DNA of 7,533 bases from a bacterium (GCA_027021085.1 JALUVB010000211.1:1-7533), one strand, 5' to 3'. Counted from the first letter of the stretch, positions 1 through 7,533 are shown. The notes: a model not told the origin generated them from the letters alone. Made by a program: numbers and translations.

Positions 1-10
1 CTGGTATGAT

Positions 11-17
11 AAAGGAG
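11..17 (+). promoter_or_regulatory. Ribosome binding site deciding a GTG start
   Basis: AAAGGAG lies 6 bases before the in-frame GTG at 24. It also lies inside the reading frame that would begin at the ATG at position 6. It therefore argues that translation of the large exported protein starts at 24. This shortens the protein by 6 residues and puts the basic and hydrophobic parts of the signal peptide in their usual places. Confidence 0.7.
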
Positions 18-23
18 AAAGAT

Positions 24-3000
24 GTGAAGATAAAAGGTAAAGAACTGTCCTTGTTCAGTGGTTTTATAGCAGTGGGATTCGCCTTTTTTTGTTTTTTCCC
101 CGTTTCCTCTTTTGCCGACCGGTACCGTGTCCCGTTGATGAAAAAACCGCCCCGGATAGACGGTTATGTCCAGGAAAGCGAATGGAAAGATGCCGTTGGT
201 TTTGATGGTTTCTCTTTTAATGGGAAATTGGAAGAACGGAAGGTAAGAGCCTACATCGGGGCTACGGAAAAGCATTTATATATTGCCATTGTCTCGGAGC
301 TCCCTCCGGAAGGTAATTTGCTGACAAAGAATACCAATACCCCCGGTAAACTCGTATACGATGACTCCGTGGAGATCTGGATTGACCCTTACCCGGGAGA
401 AGATAAAGGGATTACCTACCAGATGCTGGCAAATTCAAAAGGGGCGGTTTTTTATTTAACCCATCCCCGGGGAAAAATAAAAAAAGAAGATTATTACGGA
501 TGGAAGGGTAATTATAGAATTGACAATGGGTTTCACAATGGGTTCTGGCATTTTGAAGCAGAGATACCCATAGCAAACCTGGTGAGGGGAAGAAAATCAA
601 CCGCGGGCAAATGGGGGATAAACCTGACCCGTGATTTCAAACAGCCCTGGGCTTTTACTTCCCTGGGTAATGGCGCTTTTAACCCTGATAACGACATTGT
701 CTTTACTTTTTCTAAAGATGGTCTGGCCACAAAATACGAGAATGTAAAGGACCCGACGAGCAGGAATATAGATGGAATATTATCTCTTTACAATCCTGCT
801 GCAAAAGAAATCAGGGTAAAAGCAAAGCTTTTTCTACAGAGAAGTGCCATGCCGGAAATCGTAGCAGAAGAAGTATTTTCTGTTTCACCCGGAGAGACAG
901 AAACACTGGCGATAAAAGTAAAAGACGAAAATTCGGAAAAATTTAAACTTCTGGCAGAGGTAAAGTCTCCAGATGGGAAGAAAATTTATTATCAACGTTC
1001 CTATCACTGGGGATTACCCAGGAAAAGGCGCTGGACGAGCGAGAAAATTGCCATTCTTCCGGTTGATTTCCAGTTTGCTTACTACCCGTATCTGAACAAG
1101 ATGAAGGTTCTTGCAGATATTTCCGGGCTGAATAAAAAGGCTAAGTTAAAGAAGCTTTTATTTACCGTAAAGGAAACGAAAAGCAAAAAGGTTATCCGGA
1201 GATTCGCCCTGGATTTTTCCGAGTTTCAGAACAATAAATGTGAAAAGGTATTTGACCTTCCTCCTCTTTCCGGGAATTACAAGATTGTTCTTAAGGCGGA
1301 AGGGGAAGGGGTTCCAGAAGGAGAAGTAGTAAAATCTTTCCGGAGAACTGTATATGAATGGGAGCATAATAACCTGGGGAAAAGCAGAAAGGTCTATCCT
1401 CCGTTTGAACCGATAAAGGTAGAAGGAAGGAGCTTGTTTACAGTTTTAAAAGAATACCGGATGAATAACTTTGGACTTCTGGACCGGGTCAAGACAGAAG
1501 ACCAGCAGAGATTGGCCACAAAAGAATTGTTAAAAAGACCCATGAGCTATAGGGCAACTATAGCCGGAGAGGAGATGGAGCCGGAAGTCAAAGAGTTAAG
1601 GTTCCTGAGGAAAGCCGGGGATCGGGTTTCAGCCGAATCCAAGTTTTCTTTTGGACCCTTCAAGGTTAATTCCAAATCAACCCTTGACTACGACGGCACT
1701 TTAAGGATAGATCTGGAGCTTTTGCCGACTGCGGGGAAAAGGGTTGATTCTTTCATACTTGAAATACCCCTGAGAAGTAAAATTGCTACGATGTTTGAGG
1801 CCATGGCGGATGGAATAAGGTATCCCATCCTTACCGGTTACCTCCCAAAAGGAGAAGGCCTTATCTGGACTTCCCGGGAAATCGTTCCTGTGGGGTTTCC
1901 TCCCAACTTCTGCACTTATATATTCATCGGGAATCCCCGCAGGGGCCTGAGCTGGTTTGCAGAAAATGACCGGGGATGGTCCTGGGACAGGAAGAAACCG
2001 AACCTGGAATTAATTAGAAAAGGGGAGACCCTTACTTTAAGAGTGAACCTGATAAACAAGCCCATAATTATTAAAGAGCCCCGGAAGATAACCTTCGGAA
2101 TTCTTGCTGCCCCGGTTAAACCCCGGCTTAAAGGGTGGAGATACAAGTGGTTCAAGGATAAGTATTCAATCCTCGGGACGGATATAAACTGGTTTGGCCT
2201 GAGTAGTGCCAGCGCTGTCTATCCGGCCGGGAAAGATATGTACTTGTGGAAAATGCTTGCCGAAGGGAATAAGAGAAGGCTTTCCCGGGAAGAAATAGAG
2301 GAGGTGATTAAACGGGGGGAGAAATATTTTGCCCCTTATGGAGAAAAATATTTGGAAAAATTTATAAGGCATGTCCGGTATAACCTACGGGCACGCTATG
2401 GAACGACCATGGTATTTTATTACAACCGCGCTTCTAATGCCAGTGCTCCGGAATTCCAGACCTTTATGGATGAATGGAGTTTGAACAACTATAATCCTTA
2501 CCGGGGGAAAGATAGCATAAGAGAAATTAAAATCGTTCCCACGGACTCCTATATTGATTTTGCTCTCTACTGGTACGGTAAATCCTTTGATATTGCCAAC
2601 AATAAAGGAGTCTACTGGGATAATTATTTTTTTAAGGCCAGCTACAACACCATGATGACCTCGGCTTACAAAAGGAAAGATGGTTCAATCATGCCTTCCA
2701 CGGGTTTATGGGGTTTACGGGAACTGGTCAAGAGGACCTTCCAATACATGAACGAAAGGAAAATGCTTCCCATTACTATGGAGCATATGACCTCCACCCA
2801 GATACTCCCCCTTGAGTCCTTTGCTACGGTACAGTATGACTGGGAATGGAAGTATTCTCAAGGCGATGTGCAGGACAGGTTCCCGAGAAGCTATCTATTA
2901 CTGGTAAGTACCGGTGACCTGGCCGGGACCTGGCCGGTCCTTTTAGAAGACCACGGAAAACTTGCCCAGGACCCCTGGACACAAAAGACCTATCTTGGGG

Positions 3001-3404
3001 TGACCATAGTGCATGAACTGCTGGGCCCTATCGCAACCTGGAAACCTGAGCTTGGGAAATTATGGAAGACATTCAGAGAGCCAATCCTGGAAATATCCCA
3101 GAAGCCCGGGGTGGAAGTTTATCGCTACTGGGACGATAGAGAACAGCCTATTTTTGCTTCCAGCCCGGATCTCCCGGGTATAATTTATGTACTTAAAGGG
3201 GAGGAAGCCCTCTTTGCCATAACCAGCTACGCGGAGCAGGACGAAATAGCAAAGGTAACCATTATTCCGGAGATGCTCGGGTTTGAAAAAGGTTACAAAG
3301 TAATCGATGTGGAGACGGGAAAAGAATTAAAAGTAATTGGTAACAAAATTAAGTTTTTATTAAAAAAGCATGACTTAAAAGAATTCAGGTTAATTCCCGG
3401 GTAA
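24..3404 (+). CDS. Secreted CBM9-like / GH123-like (DUF6067-type) putative glycoside hydrolase
   Basis: Probable exported enzyme or binding protein acting on a complex glycan; the substrate is unknown. I prefer the GTG at 24 because AAAGGAG (11-17) sits 6 bases upstream. The ATG at 6 (1132 aa) has no room for a visible ribosome site. From the GTG the protein has 1126 residues. Residues 1-31 form a signal peptide: basic start, hydrophobic stretch about 10-25, and S-F-A before Asp32. Residues about 43-230 look like a CBM9/DOMON-type domain, with RIDG then W54, YDDSVEIWIDP near 112-122, and KWGINLTRD near 196-204. Residues about 244-690 are beta-rich modules. FGILAAPVKPR (691-701) opens a region resembling DUF6067/GH123-like TIM barrels, with GVYWDNYFF (862-870), MEH (919-921) and YDWEW (938-942). 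The last 95 residues look like a beta-sandwich cap. I could not identify the catalytic Asp-Glu pair known from characterised GH123 enzymes, so hydrolase activity is inferred. The LamG gene follows after 14 bases, probably in the same operon. Confidence 0.85.
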   Translation: MKIKGKELSLFSGFIAVGFAFFCFFPVSSFADRYRVPLMKKPPRIDGYVQESEWKDAVGFDGFSFNGKLEERKVRAYIGATEKHLYIAIVSELPPEGNLLTKNTNTPGKLVYDDSVEIWIDPYPGEDKGITYQMLANSKGAVFYLTHPRGKIKKEDYYGWKGNYRIDNGFHNGFWHFEAEIPIANLVRGRKSTAGKWGINLTRDFKQPWAFTSLGNGAFNPDNDIVFTFSKDGLATKYENVKDPTSRNIDGILSLYNPAAKEIRVKAKLFLQRSAMPEIVAEEVFSVSPGETETLAIKVKDENSEKFKLLAEVKSPDGKKIYYQRSYHWGLPRKRRWTSEKIAILPVDFQFAYYPYLNKMKVLADISGLNKKAKLKKLLFTVKETKSKKVIRRFALDFSEFQNNKCEKVFDLPPLSGNYKIVLKAEGEGVPEGEVVKSFRRTVYEWEHNNLGKSRKVYPPFEPIKVEGRSLFTVLKEYRMNNFGLLDRVKTEDQQRLATKELLKRPMSYRATIAGEEMEPEVKELRFLRKAGDRVSAESKFSFGPFKVNSKSTLDYDGTLRIDLELLPTAGKRVDSFILEIPLRSKIATMFEAMADGIRYPILTGYLPKGEGLIWTSREIVPVGFPPNFCTYIFIGNPRRGLSWFAENDRGWSWDRKKPNLELIRKGETLTLRVNLINKPIIIKEPRKITFGILAAPVKPRLKGWRYKWFKDKYSILGTDINWFGLSSASAVYPAGKDMYLWKMLAEGNKRRLSREEIEEVIKRGEKYFAPYGEKYLEKFIRHVRYNLRARYGTTMVFYYNRASNASAPEFQTFMDEWSLNNYNPYRGKDSIREIKIVPTDSYIDFALYWYGKSFDIANNKGVYWDNYFFKASYNTMMTSAYKRKDGSIMPSTGLWGLRELVKRTFQYMNERKMLPITMEHMTSTQILPLESFATVQYDWEWKYSQGDVQDRFPRSYLLLVSTGDLAGTWPVLLEDHGKLAQDPWTQKTYLGVTIVHELLGPIATWKPELGKLWKTFREPILEISQKPGVEVYRYWDDREQPIFASSPDLPGIIYVLKGEEALFAITSYAEQDEIAKVTIIPEMLGFEKGYKVIDVETGKELKVIGNKIKFLLKKHDLKEFRLIPG

Positions 3405-3414: not shown

Positions 3415-3418
3415 CGTG

Positions 3419-4228
3419 ATGTTAAAAAGCAGAATTATCTTTATTCTTGGGGTAGTATTTTTGTTTTATCTTGTCGTTGTGCAAACTGGTTACAGCGAGG
3501 AAAAAGCTGCAATTCCCATACCGGCTTCTTTGCAAGACAGTGTTATTTACTACAACAGTTTTGAAGCTTCCAATGGGAAGGCGGAAATAAATAAAATTGC
3601 TGCAAAAGAGCAGTTAAATATTTCCCACCTTACAGAGAGGGGAATTGTCGGGAAGGGTTATTTATCCGCTGCAGGCTGGAAAGACGGTGTTATCGTTATT
3701 TCAAAAGATTTATCTCCCTATAAGGCCCGCTCCATTTCCGTGTGGTGGGCATTGGATAAAGATTTTGAGGCCGGTAGAGTTTCTCAAGTTTTTGCCCTGC
3801 GGGGGAAGGGGAAAGGTTATATTTCTGCCTTTTTCAGGGGCGGGGGAGAGGACGGGTGGTGTGCTCTCAAAAAACCGGCCGGAATCTTCCAGGTTTACAA
3901 TTTCCCGGGGATAAAAAATATAAATGGCATTTACAACAGGGATATCGTACAATTACTAAGCCTGAAAGCAAAAGTCTGGCATAATACCATAGTTACCTTT
4001 TCCGCAGGTCAGGATATTGTTCTCTACCAGGACGGCAATAAAGTAGCAGAATACGTTTTGCAAGGCAGGCCACTGCGGGAAAATGATGGAATAAATAAAA
4101 TTGATATCGGCTTTGGTGGTAATTATCCTATGTTTCTGGATGAGATTGCCATTTATAACCGGGTTCTCTCCCCGGAAGAAATAGAAGAGTATGTAAACAT
4201 GGTGAGAGGATTGAGTTATACTAACTAA
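3419..4228 (+). CDS. Secreted single-domain LamG / concanavalin A-like protein
   Basis: Small exported protein that probably binds carbohydrate; no enzymatic motif is visible. It has 269 residues from the ATG at 3419. Residues 1-26 form a signal peptide: Lys3 and Arg5, a long hydrophobic stretch about 6-21, then G-Y-S before Glu27. The rest is one LamG-like (laminin-G/concanavalin-A-like jelly-roll) domain. It starts at VIYYNSFE, has the strand SISVWWAL near the middle and VLYQDGNKVAEY late. It ends with the family signature FLDEIAIYNRVLSPEEIEEY, in which an Asp-Glu pair on a strand precedes the 'raLs-eEI' helix. The gap to the upstream exported protein is 14 bases, so the two are probably co-transcribed and may act on the same glycan. 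LamG domains usually sit on larger enzymes, so a stand-alone copy could be an accessory binding subunit, a surface protein, or a remote relative of concanavalin-A-fold hydrolases. The fold assignment is good; the ligand is unknown. Confidence 0.85.
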   Translation: MLKSRIIFILGVVFLFYLVVVQTGYSEEKAAIPIPASLQDSVIYYNSFEASNGKAEINKIAAKEQLNISHLTERGIVGKGYLSAAGWKDGVIVISKDLSPYKARSISVWWALDKDFEAGRVSQVFALRGKGKGYISAFFRGGGEDGWCALKKPAGIFQVYNFPGIKNINGIYNRDIVQLLSLKAKVWHNTIVTFSAGQDIVLYQDGNKVAEYVLQGRPLRENDGINKIDIGFGGNYPMFLDEIAIYNRVLSPEEIEEYVNMVRGLSYTN

Positions 4229-4239
4229 TTGTCTGGTGA

Positions 4240-4273
4240 ACCAGGACACGATTCCTGGTCATATCTATTTTTT
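4240..4273 (+). terminator. Hairpin plus T-run, possible weak or attenuating terminator
   Basis: ACCAGGA (4240-4246) pairs perfectly with TCCTGGT (4253-4259) around a 6-base loop. With one bulged A, two further pairs are possible (TG at 4237-4238 with CA at 4260-4261). A run of six T residues (4268-4273) follows, but 8 bases after the stem, further than in a standard intrinsic terminator. The stem is short and only moderately GC-rich. The element separates the two exported-protein genes from the three cytoplasmic-protein genes. It could reduce read-through, or protect or process the mRNA. I see no convincing promoter downstream of it. Confidence 0.4.
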
Positions 4274-4305
4274 AATAAAATTACCACAAGATACAGGAGG
4301 GAAAA

Positions 4306-5307
4306 GTGGGAAAAACAGCAAGAGTTGTGTCCCCTCGGGTTAAGTGGGGGATAGTTGGGACCGGGACGATGGGATGCACAGCCATTAAAGCTTTAAAGGA
4401 AGCGGCAAGTGCTGAGGTGGTAGCCATAACGGATGTTAATGCCGAAGCTCGCAGGAAAGCTCAGGAAACATTTGAGATTGAGCACTCTTTCGACAACCTG
4501 GAGCTTCTGCTGGAGAAGGCGGATGTGGATGCGATTTATATTGCCACTCCTCCCTATCTCCATTGCCAGCAGGCAGTGCAGGCGGCAGAGGCGGGAAAGC
4601 ATGTATTTTGTGAGAAGCCAATGGCTATGAGTGAGGAAGAATGCCAGCGTATGATAGAAGCCTGCAAGCGGAACGGGGTAAAGTTGATGGTTGGGTTCAA
4701 GGCACGCTTCAATTCTTATCACCAGCACTTGCGGAAAATGATTGTGAAGGGCGAGCTGGGAGAGCTGGTATTTTTGCGGGCGGAAAGAATTGTTCTTATT
4801 GATTGTAAGTGGGGCTGGCACGAAGACCCGCGTATCTCCGGCGGAGGAGTATTGGCAGACCTGGGAACGCATGCCATTGACCTGCTCCGCTATTTAGCGG
4901 GAAGTGAGGTTACATCAGTCAGGGGAATCACCTCCCGGGTTACTGATTATCACTCGCCCGAAATTGAAGAGACGGGTTCTATCCTGCTACGGTTTGCCAA
5001 TAATGCACAGGGAATTATTAATATAAGTATTGCCTCTCCGATAGACCGGGCAGATGTGTGGGCCTGTGGCACCCGGGGAGAGGTTATTTGCAGGAATACC
5101 CTGGGTGGGGCAGGAAATGGGTCAATGGAAGTAATCATCCGGGGGAAACGCCGGCAGGTGACCCTGCCGGCAAACAATGAATACCAGTGCGAAGTAGAGC
5201 ATTTCAGCCAGTGCATACTGCATAATCGCCAGCCGTTAATCAGCGGAGAGGATGGCCTGGAGTGCACCCGCATATTAACCAGAGTTTACCAGGAGGAATC
5301 CAGATGA
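4306..5307 (+). CDS. Gfo/Idh/MocA-family NAD(P)-dependent oxidoreductase
   Basis: Cytoplasmic oxidoreductase that probably oxidises a hydroxyl of a sugar, inositol or glycoside using NAD(P); the precise substrate cannot be read from sequence. It has 333 residues, the usual size for the family. The start is GTG at 4306, with AGGAGGG ending 4 bases upstream. The N-terminal Rossmann domain (about 12-125) shows GIVGTGTMG (15-23), Asp43 at the end of the second strand (which often favours NAD over NADP), the strand AIYIATPPYLH (76-86) and the EKP motif (103-105) with the conserved Lys104. The C-terminal alpha/beta domain carries GGGVLADLGTHAIDLLRYL (179 onward), in which Asp185 and His189 match the conserved D-x-G-x-H catalytic motif. 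The stop overlaps the start of the next gene by ATGA, so the two are translationally coupled. This pairing with an isomerase-like TIM barrel recalls keto-sugar chemistry or inositol-type catabolism. Confidence 0.93.
   Translation: MGKTARVVSPRVKWGIVGTGTMGCTAIKALKEAASAEVVAITDVNAEARRKAQETFEIEHSFDNLELLLEKADVDAIYIATPPYLHCQQAVQAAEAGKHVFCEKPMAMSEEECQRMIEACKRNGVKLMVGFKARFNSYHQHLRKMIVKGELGELVFLRAERIVLIDCKWGWHEDPRISGGGVLADLGTHAIDLLRYLAGSEVTSVRGITSRVTDYHSPEIEETGSILLRFANNAQGIINISIASPIDRADVWACGTRGEVICRNTLGGAGNGSMEVIIRGKRRQVTLPANNEYQCEVEHFSQCILHNRQPLISGEDGLECTRILTRVYQEESR
5291..5296 (+). promoter_or_regulatory. Ribosome binding site for the isomerase-like gene, inside the oxidoreductase gene
   Basis: AGGAGG lies within the last codons of the oxidoreductase gene, 7 bases before the ATG at 5304. 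It fixes that ATG as the start in place of an in-frame GTG at 5262, which would add 14 unlike residues ahead of the family's usual short N-terminal strand. Confidence 0.8.
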
Positions 5308-6137
5308 AAATAGGAATTATGGCCGGAGAGTTTGTGGGTAAGCCCCTGTCGATGATATTTGCCAGGGCTAAGGAGTACGGGGCAGAGGCGGTGGAATTAG
5401 TCTTGCAGGATAATCTTCCCTTAAGCCAGGTCCCGGAGGTTAAAAGTTTATCAAAGCAGTTTGATATTGAGGTCTGTGCCATTAATAACCGTGCCTCGGT
5501 ATTGATGGCAGATGAGGAAACAAAACTCCAGGAAGCCAGGGAGATTTTTACTGAGAGTATAACCATGGCGGTTGAGCTTGCTGCTCCCATAATCGTTACC
5601 TATACTTATAGCGATATTATGGAGGGTGCTGAGGAGCAGGATATACTGGATAAGTATGCTTCCCGCCTGGAGCCGTTTATAAAGCGATGTGAGAAAGAAG
5701 GGATAACTTTAGCCATAGAAAACGAGCCTTGCGGCCTGACCCAGACTGCCCGGGGAGTGAGGCGGCTGGTGGAATATATTGGCAGCCCCCGGGTGCGGAT
5801 AAATTACGACCCGGACAATTTCTATAACGGGGGTGAAGAAGGGTTCCCTTACAGTTACGAGATGCTGAAAGATTTTATCGTTTATGTTCATGCCAAGGAT
5901 TCCACCAAGTACATAGAGAATTTGCATTCCCCCGAGGAACAAATTATCCATCGTTACATAGATGCGCTCTGCGTGCCCATTGGCCAGGGGGCGATTAACT
6001 GGGAAGGGTTGATGCGGAGGTTAAAAGCTGATGGATACGATGGAAGCATAGTCATTGAACCTCATACCAGGCCGGAGAAAATGGACCATACTTTTATGGC
6101 TGGTGTGCAATATATTAAAGCAAAACTGGCAGAATAA
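5304..6137 (+). CDS. Xylose-isomerase-like TIM-barrel sugar isomerase/epimerase family protein
   Basis: Probable cytoplasmic metal-dependent isomerase, epimerase, dehydratase or lyase of the AP-endonuclease-2/xylose-isomerase-like superfamily. From the ATG at 5304 it has 277 residues, normal for the family. It starts directly with strand 1 (MKIGIMAGEF). Putative metal ligands lie in the usual order: Glu139 in AIENE, Asp169 or Asp171 in NYDPDN, His196 in YVHAKD, and Glu252 in IVIEPH. The segment PIGQGAINWEGLMRRLKADG (225-244) is the common late motif of this family (G-x-G-x-[IV]-[ND]-[WF]). The start overlaps the stop of the Gfo/Idh/MocA gene, and the GH35 gene begins 50 bases downstream. Members of this family act as sugar epimerases, inosose dehydratases or isomerases, hydroxypyruvate isomerases, and partners in keto-glycoside cleavage. 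Sequence alone does not decide among these. The oxidoreductase partner favours a keto-sugar or keto-glycoside substrate. Confidence 0.92.
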   Translation: MKIGIMAGEFVGKPLSMIFARAKEYGAEAVELVLQDNLPLSQVPEVKSLSKQFDIEVCAINNRASVLMADEETKLQEAREIFTESITMAVELAAPIIVTYTYSDIMEGAEEQDILDKYASRLEPFIKRCEKEGITLAIENEPCGLTQTARGVRRLVEYIGSPRVRINYDPDNFYNGGEEGFPYSYEMLKDFIVYVHAKDSTKYIENLHSPEEQIIHRYIDALCVPIGQGAINWEGLMRRLKADGYDGSIVIEPHTRPEKMDHTFMAGVQYIKAKLAE

Positions 6138-6187
6138 AGGCATGAGAGAGAAAATAAACGCAAAAGTGAAGAGGAGGAAAAAGTAAG

Positions 6188-7533
6188 ATGTCGCAGCAAA
6201 AGACAAAAATAGAAGATTGTATATTTAAAGGAGAGGGCAGGGAAATCCCCCTGGTAAGCGGTGAGTTTCACTACTGGAGAAACAATGCAGAGAACTGGGA
6301 ATCCATACTTGAGAGTATAAAGAAACTGGGACTGCGGATTGTCTCCACTTATATCCCCTGGAATTTTCACGAGATTTCTCCCGGGGAATACGATTTTGAG
6401 GGAAAGACAAGCCCCCAGAAAAACCTGCGTGGATTTATTGAGCTTACCATAGCCAAGGGGCTCTACCTGGTGGTAAGGCCAGGGCCTTATATCTATGCAG
6501 AATGGCCGTTTGGGGGGGTGCCGGAGAGGGCAAGCAAATATCACCGGCTCGACCCCGAGTTTTTGCGGATGGCTAAAGATTATCTCATCAATGTCTGCAA
6601 ACTACTCTCAGCCTACCAGATTACCCGGGGAGGTAATATTATCCTGGTGCAGGTGGATAATGAGCCCTATCCTTCCGTGGAGAGCTTCGGAGAAGACCTG
6701 GGTTGTTTTGGGAAGGGAGTCCTTACCGGTTTTAAGCAATGGCTCAGGGAAAAGTACAAGGGAGACATAGAGTTATTGAACCGGAGATGGCAGGATAATT
6801 ACAAGTCCTTTGATGAACCCTGCCTGTTTTTCCATGAGCCGTATGTAAATATAAACCTGCCCATGGCAGACAGGTTGCTGCCTCACCCGGATTATTACTT
6901 CCGCTATGCGGACTCCATGGAATTCATTGGCTGGTATGGTGCTGAGATAGTTTCTGCCATAAAAGAGCCAATCAGGGAGGCGGGGATAGAGGTTCCTCTC
7001 TATGTTAACGGCTGGTCACCTCTATTCCAGGATTTCAGGAGGCTTTCCCGGAAAGTGGACATGGTGGGCGTGGATATCTCTCCCTACGGAGAATATATAC
7101 AGGGGGATAGACTCACTGAGGACGAATGGCTGTATATAATTGACATAGCCAAGCTTACCAATACAGATGTAGGTTACCTGTGGTGTGCGGAGTTGCAGAG
7201 CGGTATACCTCCCAGCAAGCAGTGTTACCTCCCTCCCAAACACTTTAAGTATCTTCCCCTGGCTTTAATGGCTTACGGCTTGAAGGGATGGAACTGGTAT
7301 ATGTTGGTAAACAGGGACAGCCGTTATAATTCGCCTATAGATGAATGGGGCAGAAAGAACGAGTACTATCCCATACATAAGGAGGTAGTAGAGATAGCGG
7401 AAAAGGTAAGGCCCTGGGAGTTAGAGCCTGTATATGATGTGGATTTATTTGTCTACAAACCCCACCGGGTGATAACGCCGGGAAATTTCAAGCAGACCTT
7501 TTATTCCCTCCAGGAGGCTAATGTAAGTTTCCA
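6188..7533 (+). CDS. GH35 beta-galactosidase-type glycoside hydrolase, 3' end beyond the window
   Basis: Retaining exo-hydrolase expected to remove terminal beta-galactosyl (or related) residues. The window holds 448 codons with no stop, so the frame runs off the edge. An in-frame TGA at 6167 makes ATG 6188 the first usable start; GAGGAGG (6171-6177) lies 10 bases upstream, slightly long spacing. The GH35 TIM barrel is clear. SGEFHYWR (24-31) corresponds to the family's SxHYxR. IVSTYIPWNFHEISPGEYDF (51-70) matches the family block. RPGPYIYAEWPFGGVP (97-112) is close to the GH35 consensus. VQVDNEP (154-160) contains the probable acid/base Glu159. LWCAELQSG (331-339) contains the probable nucleophile Glu335. 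GWNWYMLVNRDSRYNSPIDEWG (367-388) matches the late active-site loop. There is no signal peptide, so the enzyme should be cytoplasmic, unlike the exported proteins encoded upstream. Asp replaces the usual Glu in QVENE. Beta-sandwich domains normally follow the barrel and would lie outside the window. GH42 is less likely given these motifs. Confidence 0.93.
   Translation, partial: MSQQKTKIEDCIFKGEGREIPLVSGEFHYWRNNAENWESILESIKKLGLRIVSTYIPWNFHEISPGEYDFEGKTSPQKNLRGFIELTIAKGLYLVVRPGPYIYAEWPFGGVPERASKYHRLDPEFLRMAKDYLINVCKLLSAYQITRGGNIILVQVDNEPYPSVESFGEDLGCFGKGVLTGFKQWLREKYKGDIELLNRRWQDNYKSFDEPCLFFHEPYVNINLPMADRLLPHPDYYFRYADSMEFIGWYGAEIVSAIKEPIREAGIEVPLYVNGWSPLFQDFRRLSRKVDMVGVDISPYGEYIQGDRLTEDEWLYIIDIAKLTNTDVGYLWCAELQSGIPPSKQCYLPPKHFKYLPLALMAYGLKGWNWYMLVNRDSRYNSPIDEWGRKNEYYPIHKEVVEIAEKVRPWELEPVYDVDLFVYKPHRVITPGNFKQTFYSLQEANVSF

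Follow-up and report, generated by a model that had tools for sequence, protein, structure and literature searches.

What reaction is carried out by a Gfo/Idh/MocA oxidoreductase whose gene overlaps that of a xylose-isomerase-like TIM barrel, in the company of genes for glycoside hydrolases? The question is raised by the window analysed here, which is a complete contig (G000:C211, 7533 bases) of a 1.93-Mb draft genome that is 94% complete, and which carries five genes, all on the plus strand (open reading frame (ORF) calling and Pfam). The two proteins form a real and conserved sugar-redox pair which, though of a known kind, is uncharacterised, and each belongs to a rare, uncharacterised branch of its family. 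Our favoured reading, to which we give a probability of roughly 45%, is that they make up a cytoplasmic redox module of sugar catabolism, in which an NAD-dependent dehydrogenase and a metal-dependent keto-sugar epimerase or isomerase would work like YcjQRS of Escherichia coli, serving glycan catabolism. The features of the pair are as follows.

4306..5307, plus strand: Gfo/Idh/MocA oxidoreductase of 333 amino acids (aa), no signal peptide, with Rossmann, EKP and DLGTHAID motifs (ORFs, Pfam, alignment and tree, model)
5304..6137, plus strand: xylose-isomerase-like TIM barrel (AP_endonuc_2) of 277 aa (ORFs, Pfam, motifs, model)
5304..5307, plus strand: ATGA start/stop overlap of the two genes, translational coupling (sequence)

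The gene pair and its conservation

The families and the coupling proposed for the two genes in a preliminary description of this DNA agree with the ORFs, the sequence and Pfam (GFO_IDH_MocA, E 9e-33; AP_endonuc_2, E 1e-34). The oxidoreductase gene starts with GTG, preceded by CAGGAGGG, and its TGA stop is overlapped, as ATGA, by the ATG of the TIM-barrel gene at 5304; the longest TIM-barrel ORF opens at a GTG at 5262, but the ribosome-binding site belongs to the ATG. The sole close relative found of the TIM barrel (50% identity) is at a locus, L032, of a metagenome-assembled genome from another assembly (CSMAG_1143), and the two proteins have the unbroken stretch NYDPDNFYNGGEEGFPY in common. 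After 14 bases the L032 gene is followed by one for a Gfo/Idh protein 39% identical to that of the window, the order thus being reversed. L032 holds three more Gfo/Idh genes, making four around one TIM barrel, and a gene for a DegT aminotransferase, and is without GH35, GH123 or LamG. The five-gene order of the window, whose survey across genomes had been suggested, is therefore not kept in the one relative available: what is conserved is the pair, without the glycoside hydrolases.

Close relatives are rare. Screening some 670 other genomes, of which 291 are related to that of L032 and 386 surround that of the window, added no third close member of the subfamily, the next best match being at about E 1e-30, and a search of viral contigs revealed no relatives. 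Plasmids gave tblastn matches at 27–31% identity, in mixed contexts with no consistent pathway. Within the genome itself, 3 of the 11 AP_endonuc_2 genes touch one of the 21 Gfo/Idh genes (in the window and on contigs C53 and C249), against about 0.25 expected, a comparison made post hoc; with the window left out, 2 of 10 do so (P about 0.02).

Start and stop codons overlap also in the C249 pair and in a related pair on contig C139 of another genome, G033. On C249 (L067:1-1856) the overlap of the Gfo/Idh and AP_endonuc_2 genes is again ATGA, and the Gfo/Idh protein groups with E. coli YcjS, a D-glucoside 3-dehydrogenase (100/98); a gene pair related to that of C249, with a shorter Gfo/Idh frame, is present on contig C138 of genome G001. 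The G033 locus (L092:3-10491) comprises genes for a zinc dehydrogenase, an ABC sugar importer, GH4, a TIM barrel 31% identical to ours that overlaps a Gfo/Idh gene by TAATG, two more Gfo/Idh proteins and the glucuronate isomerase UxaC, a gene content that suggests a cluster, so far uncharacterised, for the catabolism of a uronate or glycoside.

Affinities of the oxidoreductase

The oxidoreductase has an NAD-type Rossmann motif (GTGTMG, with Asp43 after beta-2), an EKP motif and an intact catalytic DLGTHAID motif, and falls under every NCBIfam cut-off. Its best match is to IolG (TIGR04380, 184 bits against a cut-off of 355), followed by UDP-GlcNAc 3-dehydrogenase (NF040723, 172 against 450); levoglucosan dehydrogenase (NF052479, 112.6 against 650) and the Bacteroides-type 3-keto-glycoside dehydrogenases of BT2158/BT2159 (NF058561 and NF058563, 61 against 750 and 79 against 650) are further away. 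A GH109-type NAD glycosidase was also considered, and no such Pfam match was obtained. In trees, the protein joins its L032 neighbours and a paralogue on contig C297 of the same genome (96/88), in a clade that is sister to glucose-fructose oxidoreductase (GFOR) and aldose-aldose oxidoreductase (AAOR) (97/96); with a smaller set of sequences the corresponding supports were 87/83 and 95/97. In approximately unbiased (AU) tests a grouping with YcjS was rejected (p 0.0008), and one with IolG was not (p 0.18). The structural model (predicted local distance difference test (pLDDT) 87) gave Z scores of 39.8 with 1,5-anhydrofructose reductase and AAOR, 37.2 with levoglucosan dehydrogenase and 36.1 with DgpA.

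Might the pair act simply on free monosaccharides or sugar acids, through a dehydrogenase and then an isomerase or epimerase of the ketose or keto acid, with no involvement of glycosides? The sister relationship to GFOR and AAOR and the structural nearness to 1,5-anhydrofructose reductase and AAOR would be in keeping with this, as would the presence of ketose 3-epimerases among the nearest characterised folds of the TIM barrel and the location of relatives next to UxaC or an enolase-superfamily dehydratase. However, the catalytic Tyr of GFOR and AAOR is replaced in the window protein by His189 (GGGVLADLGTH versus GGGSLMDIGIY), as in enzymes of the IolG and 3-dehydrogenase types, and the GH35 and GH123-like neighbours indicate glycans. 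We rank free-sugar catabolism next after the favoured reading, though on the whole it is a doubtful one.

A different proposal, which would make the oxidoreductase a 3-dehydrogenase of the GnnA/WlbA type acting with a DegT aminotransferase in the biosynthesis of amino or nucleotide sugars, could draw on the DegT gene of L032, on the rank of NF040723 as second-best match and on the related Gfo/Idh gene on C297, which adjoins a gene for a sugar nucleotidyltransferase. Yet the NF040723 score is far from its cut-off, and the window contains glycoside hydrolase genes instead of any for an aminotransferase or a nucleotidyltransferase, so that a biosynthetic role seems very improbable.

The TIM barrel: epimerisation or elimination

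The TIM barrel, too, is under every NCBIfam cut-off, the best match being IolE (TIGR04379, 45 bits against 290). It forms a clade with the L032 protein (100/100), beside uncharacterised proteins with the motifs ENE, D-P-x-N, H-x-K-D and E-P/T-H. AU tests rejected joining it to IolE (p 0.002), YcjR (p 0.02), UlaE (p 0.04) or Hyi/OtnI (p 0.001), to be read with caution as many of the branches are long. In a model built from two sequences (pLDDT 79), Glu139, Asp169, His196 and Glu252 lie at the ends of strands 5, 6, 7 and 8 and are the probable counterparts of the metal ligands of the superfamily; Glu141, Lys198 and His254 are also conserved. Such a divalent-metal site, from beta-5 to beta-8, is shared by the whole superfamily and is not specific to eliminases. 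The nearest solved fold is that of Art22 (Z 28), followed by AtHYD (25.8) and YcjR (25.0), with ketose 3-epimerases and UlaE at 25–26, a comparison in which epimerases, isomerases, hydratases and dehydratases are not told apart. Three genomes of the class encode a paralogue that has the ENE and EPH motifs too, next to ispE and near gltX (L072:6717-7547, L089:907-1737 and L010:907-1737).

These results bear on inositol catabolism, named beside sugar catabolism as a simpler reading in the preliminary description, in which an IolG-type dehydrogenase would act with an IolE-type inosose dehydratase. In NCBIfam the two proteins come nearest to IolG and IolE, and for the oxidoreductase the AU test does not reject grouping with IolG, but both scores are under the equivalog cut-offs and the beta-5 motif of the TIM barrel differs from that of IolE. 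The firm grouping of both proteins with inositol enzymes that would have told against the preliminary description did not appear. No IolD was detected in the genome (about 94% complete) by a search of which the control was positive. This absence, together with the rejection of a join to IolE, makes an ordinary inositol pathway unlikely, although the immediate neighbourhood is visible only as far as the contig reaches, and we rate it the least probable of the readings considered.

The central idea of the preliminary description was that the pair might cleave glycosides, the Gfo/Idh enzyme oxidising C3 and the TIM barrel then taking part in elimination of the aglycone, as in the C-glycoside deglycosidases (CGDs). 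The elimination would be a metal-dependent beta-elimination, of the kind known also from AtOGE and the levoglucosan pathway. Known operons of this type do combine genes for Gfo/Idh proteins and ‘sugar phosphate isomerases’, the oxidoreductase closely resembles DgpA and levoglucosan dehydrogenase in structure (Z 36–37), and the Mn-type Glu-Asp-His-Glu ligands and H-x-K of CGDs (PMC8563793) are present, although H-x-K-D is widespread across the larger family and so carries little weight. The CGD metal ligands are Glu147, Asp179, His269, Lys271 and Glu305, with the base His149, and Glu307, nearby (PMC8563793); those of AtOGE are His132, Asp163, His189 and Glu233, with the base His134, which the H134A variant shows to be essential (PMC10628242). 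By motif and strand order, on which our comparison with CGDs and AtOGE was made rather than on sequence alignment, the catalytic His at the second position past the beta-5 ligand (His149 in AgCGD2, His143 in PuCGD, His134 in AtOGE) is replaced by Glu141 in the window, in L032 and in their relatives. His254, two residues past the beta-8 ligand Glu252, might stand in for it; the residue types are those of CGDs, exchanged. Neither CGD alpha nor AtOGE chains are among the fold matches listed, which speaks neither for nor against elimination. The CGD beta subunit CGDB (PF19906) was found neither in the window nor in the genome, which is about 94% complete (the same search was positive in 3 of 386 other genomes, the matches lying in URO-D or repeat proteins), there was no 3-keto-disaccharide hydrolase/lyase (PF06439) in the genome, and the contig has no second TIM barrel that could be the hydratase. 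Lacking the CGD-type His, CGDB and PF06439, the pair falls outside the known eliminase families. The notion of a redox sugar module stands. Cleavage is a possible mechanism and not the best supported one; we think it unlikely, and the support for a keto-sugar epimerase is no weaker. A more particular idea, a new class of metal-dependent keto-glycoside lyases with a swapped dyad (Glu two residues after the beta-5 ligand and His two residues after that of beta-8, the reverse of CGDs), in which a GFOR-related dehydrogenase would help to open a linkage beyond the reach of the hydrolases nearby, is improbable. The window pair is a warning against taking any Gfo/Idh and TIM-barrel pair for a glycoside eliminase.

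Two routes are known for systems of this build: oxidation, elimination, hydration and reduction (levoglucosan, PMC7676230; puerarin; AtOGE), or oxidation, epimerisation and reduction (YcjQRS, PMC11543891). In the latter, ycjQ, ycjR and ycjS determine a guloside 3-dehydrogenase, a 3-dehydroguloside 4-epimerase and a glucoside 3-dehydrogenase, beside sugar phosphorylases (PMC11543891). We favour epimerisation because it calls for a single TIM barrel with a pair of glutamates, besides one dehydrogenase or two, which fits L032, and because the marks of an eliminase are lacking. The oxidoreductase would use NAD to oxidise a ring hydroxyl, probably that at C3, of a sugar or small glycoside; the TIM barrel, with its metal, would act beside the carbonyl through an enediolate, Glu139 and Glu252 serving as acid and base, and would invert or shift the centre next to it; reduction of the product to an ordinary sugar would then fall to the oxidoreductase itself or to another Gfo/Idh enzyme. 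Four Gfo/Idh genes around the TIM barrel of L032 would be expected if one enzyme oxidises and another reduces.

This dehydrogenase–epimerase reading is supported by the retention of the pair in L032, by the metal ligands being in place, by the fold matches to ketose 3-epimerases, UlaE and YcjR, by the intact motif of the oxidoreductase and its sisterhood to the sugar oxidoreductases GFOR and AAOR, by the 31% TIM-barrel relative within a cluster with a sugar importer, GH4, Gfo/Idh and UxaC, and by a second GH35 gene of the same genome near genes for GH29, a GH78-like protein and Gfo/Idh. Several points weigh against it: substrate and reaction have to be argued on indirect grounds; the pair has one known relative only, on a contig that is likewise short; neither protein groups with YcjS or YcjR (p 0.0008 and 0.02), so that the likeness to YcjQRS is one of build and not of membership; and the structure matches do not discriminate, the 2-hydroxy-3-keto-glucal hydratase AtHYD scoring as well as the epimerases.

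The glycan setting and comparison with known systems

The remaining features of the window are these.

6..3404, plus strand: large exported protein with a partial GH123_N match, outside the conserved pair (ORFs, Pfam)
3416..4228, plus strand: exported LamG (concanavalin-like) protein, outside the conserved pair (ORFs, Pfam)
4240..4275, plus strand: 7-bp hairpin and T-rich tail in the gap from the LamG gene to that of the oxidoreductase; possible weak terminator splitting two transcription units (scan for terminator-like sites)
6188..7533, plus strand: cytoplasmic GH35 protein, incomplete because the contig stops, with 448 of about 700 aa seen (ORFs, Pfam, comparison with a paralogue)

The signal-less GH35 was said to follow after 50 bases, and both family and gap are confirmed: the TIM-barrel stop ends at 6137, the GH35 ATG is at 6188, and the match to Glyco_hydro_35 (PF01301; E 9e-42, 144 bits against a cut-off of 27) includes the conserved NE acid/base motif (VQVDNEP). 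The gene runs off the contig. That the enzyme is a beta-galactosidase cannot be taken for granted when the nearest solved GH35 structure is that of a beta-1,2-glucosyltransferase (7vkx; PMC8861115) and a full-length paralogue in the same genome, 59% identical, has a GlmA-type second domain (GLMA_2nd). In the favoured scheme, GH35 would release or trim the substrate.

The paralogue is encoded on contig C298 (L080:3-12158) in a glycan cluster, with a GH78-like rhamnosidase, URO-D, DUF3604, a GH29 alpha-L-fucosidase, a Gfo/Idh protein and an unassigned protein. From this second locus, with its GH29, GH78-like, Gfo/Idh and GH35 genes, we conclude that the glycan setting of the pair is real. On contig C19 (L085), two sulfatase-like proteins and one each of GH38-like and GH2-like type could be discerned by eye around a Gfo/Idh gene with one in-frame TAG.

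The GH123_N match (E 3e-14) covers only residues 426–597 of the 1132-aa exported protein, whose N-terminal domain resembles a carbohydrate-binding module and which has no sequence relative in the PDB at E 0.1; judged by its sequence, it possibly represents a new glycosidase-like family. The LamG match is at E 3e-10. The gap of 77 bases between the LamG and oxidoreductase genes contains the hairpin and T-rich tail, which may set the LamG gene and the one before it apart from the three that follow, so that the five may not share one transcript; terminator-like sites in the window are mildly above chance (15 against 8.7 expected).

Redox routes by which sugars are oxidised, reworked or cleaved alongside the classical hydrolases have been appreciated only lately, and they are difficult to recognise from sequence. 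A pair that is rare and conserved, has no characterised close relative and comes from a little-studied group of bacteria with many such genes is a reasonable target for assay.

How, finally, does the pair compare with known systems? GFOR and AAOR are the sister clade of the oxidoreductase, and 1,5-anhydrofructose reductase is among its top structural matches, but it differs from GFOR and AAOR in having His189 for Tyr, no signal peptide and a TIM-barrel partner. With the levoglucosan system (LgdA-LgdB1-LgdB2-LgdC) it shares the association of dehydrogenase and sugar-phosphate-isomerase-like genes and the match to levoglucosan dehydrogenase, although the score is far under the 650-bit cut-off, there is one TIM barrel rather than two, and the contig has no ABC transporter. 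DgpA-DgpBC, CarBC and AtOGE/AtHYD likewise combine a Gfo/Idh enzyme and a metal TIM barrel with Glu-Asp-His-Glu ligands, but the window protein has Glu for the catalytic His after the beta-5 ligand, there is no CGD beta subunit, and a PDB search with it gave no sequence match to the CGD alpha chain. As for the ycjQ-ycjR-ycjS genes of E. coli, the similarity of YcjR to the window TIM barrel is limited to the C-terminus, the two proteins are not orthologues of YcjS and YcjR, and no second dehydrogenase gene is seen before the contig ends; yet there too a Gfo/Idh protein and an AP_endonuc_2 TIM barrel, with the same folds, are encoded side by side in a glycoside-handling cluster.

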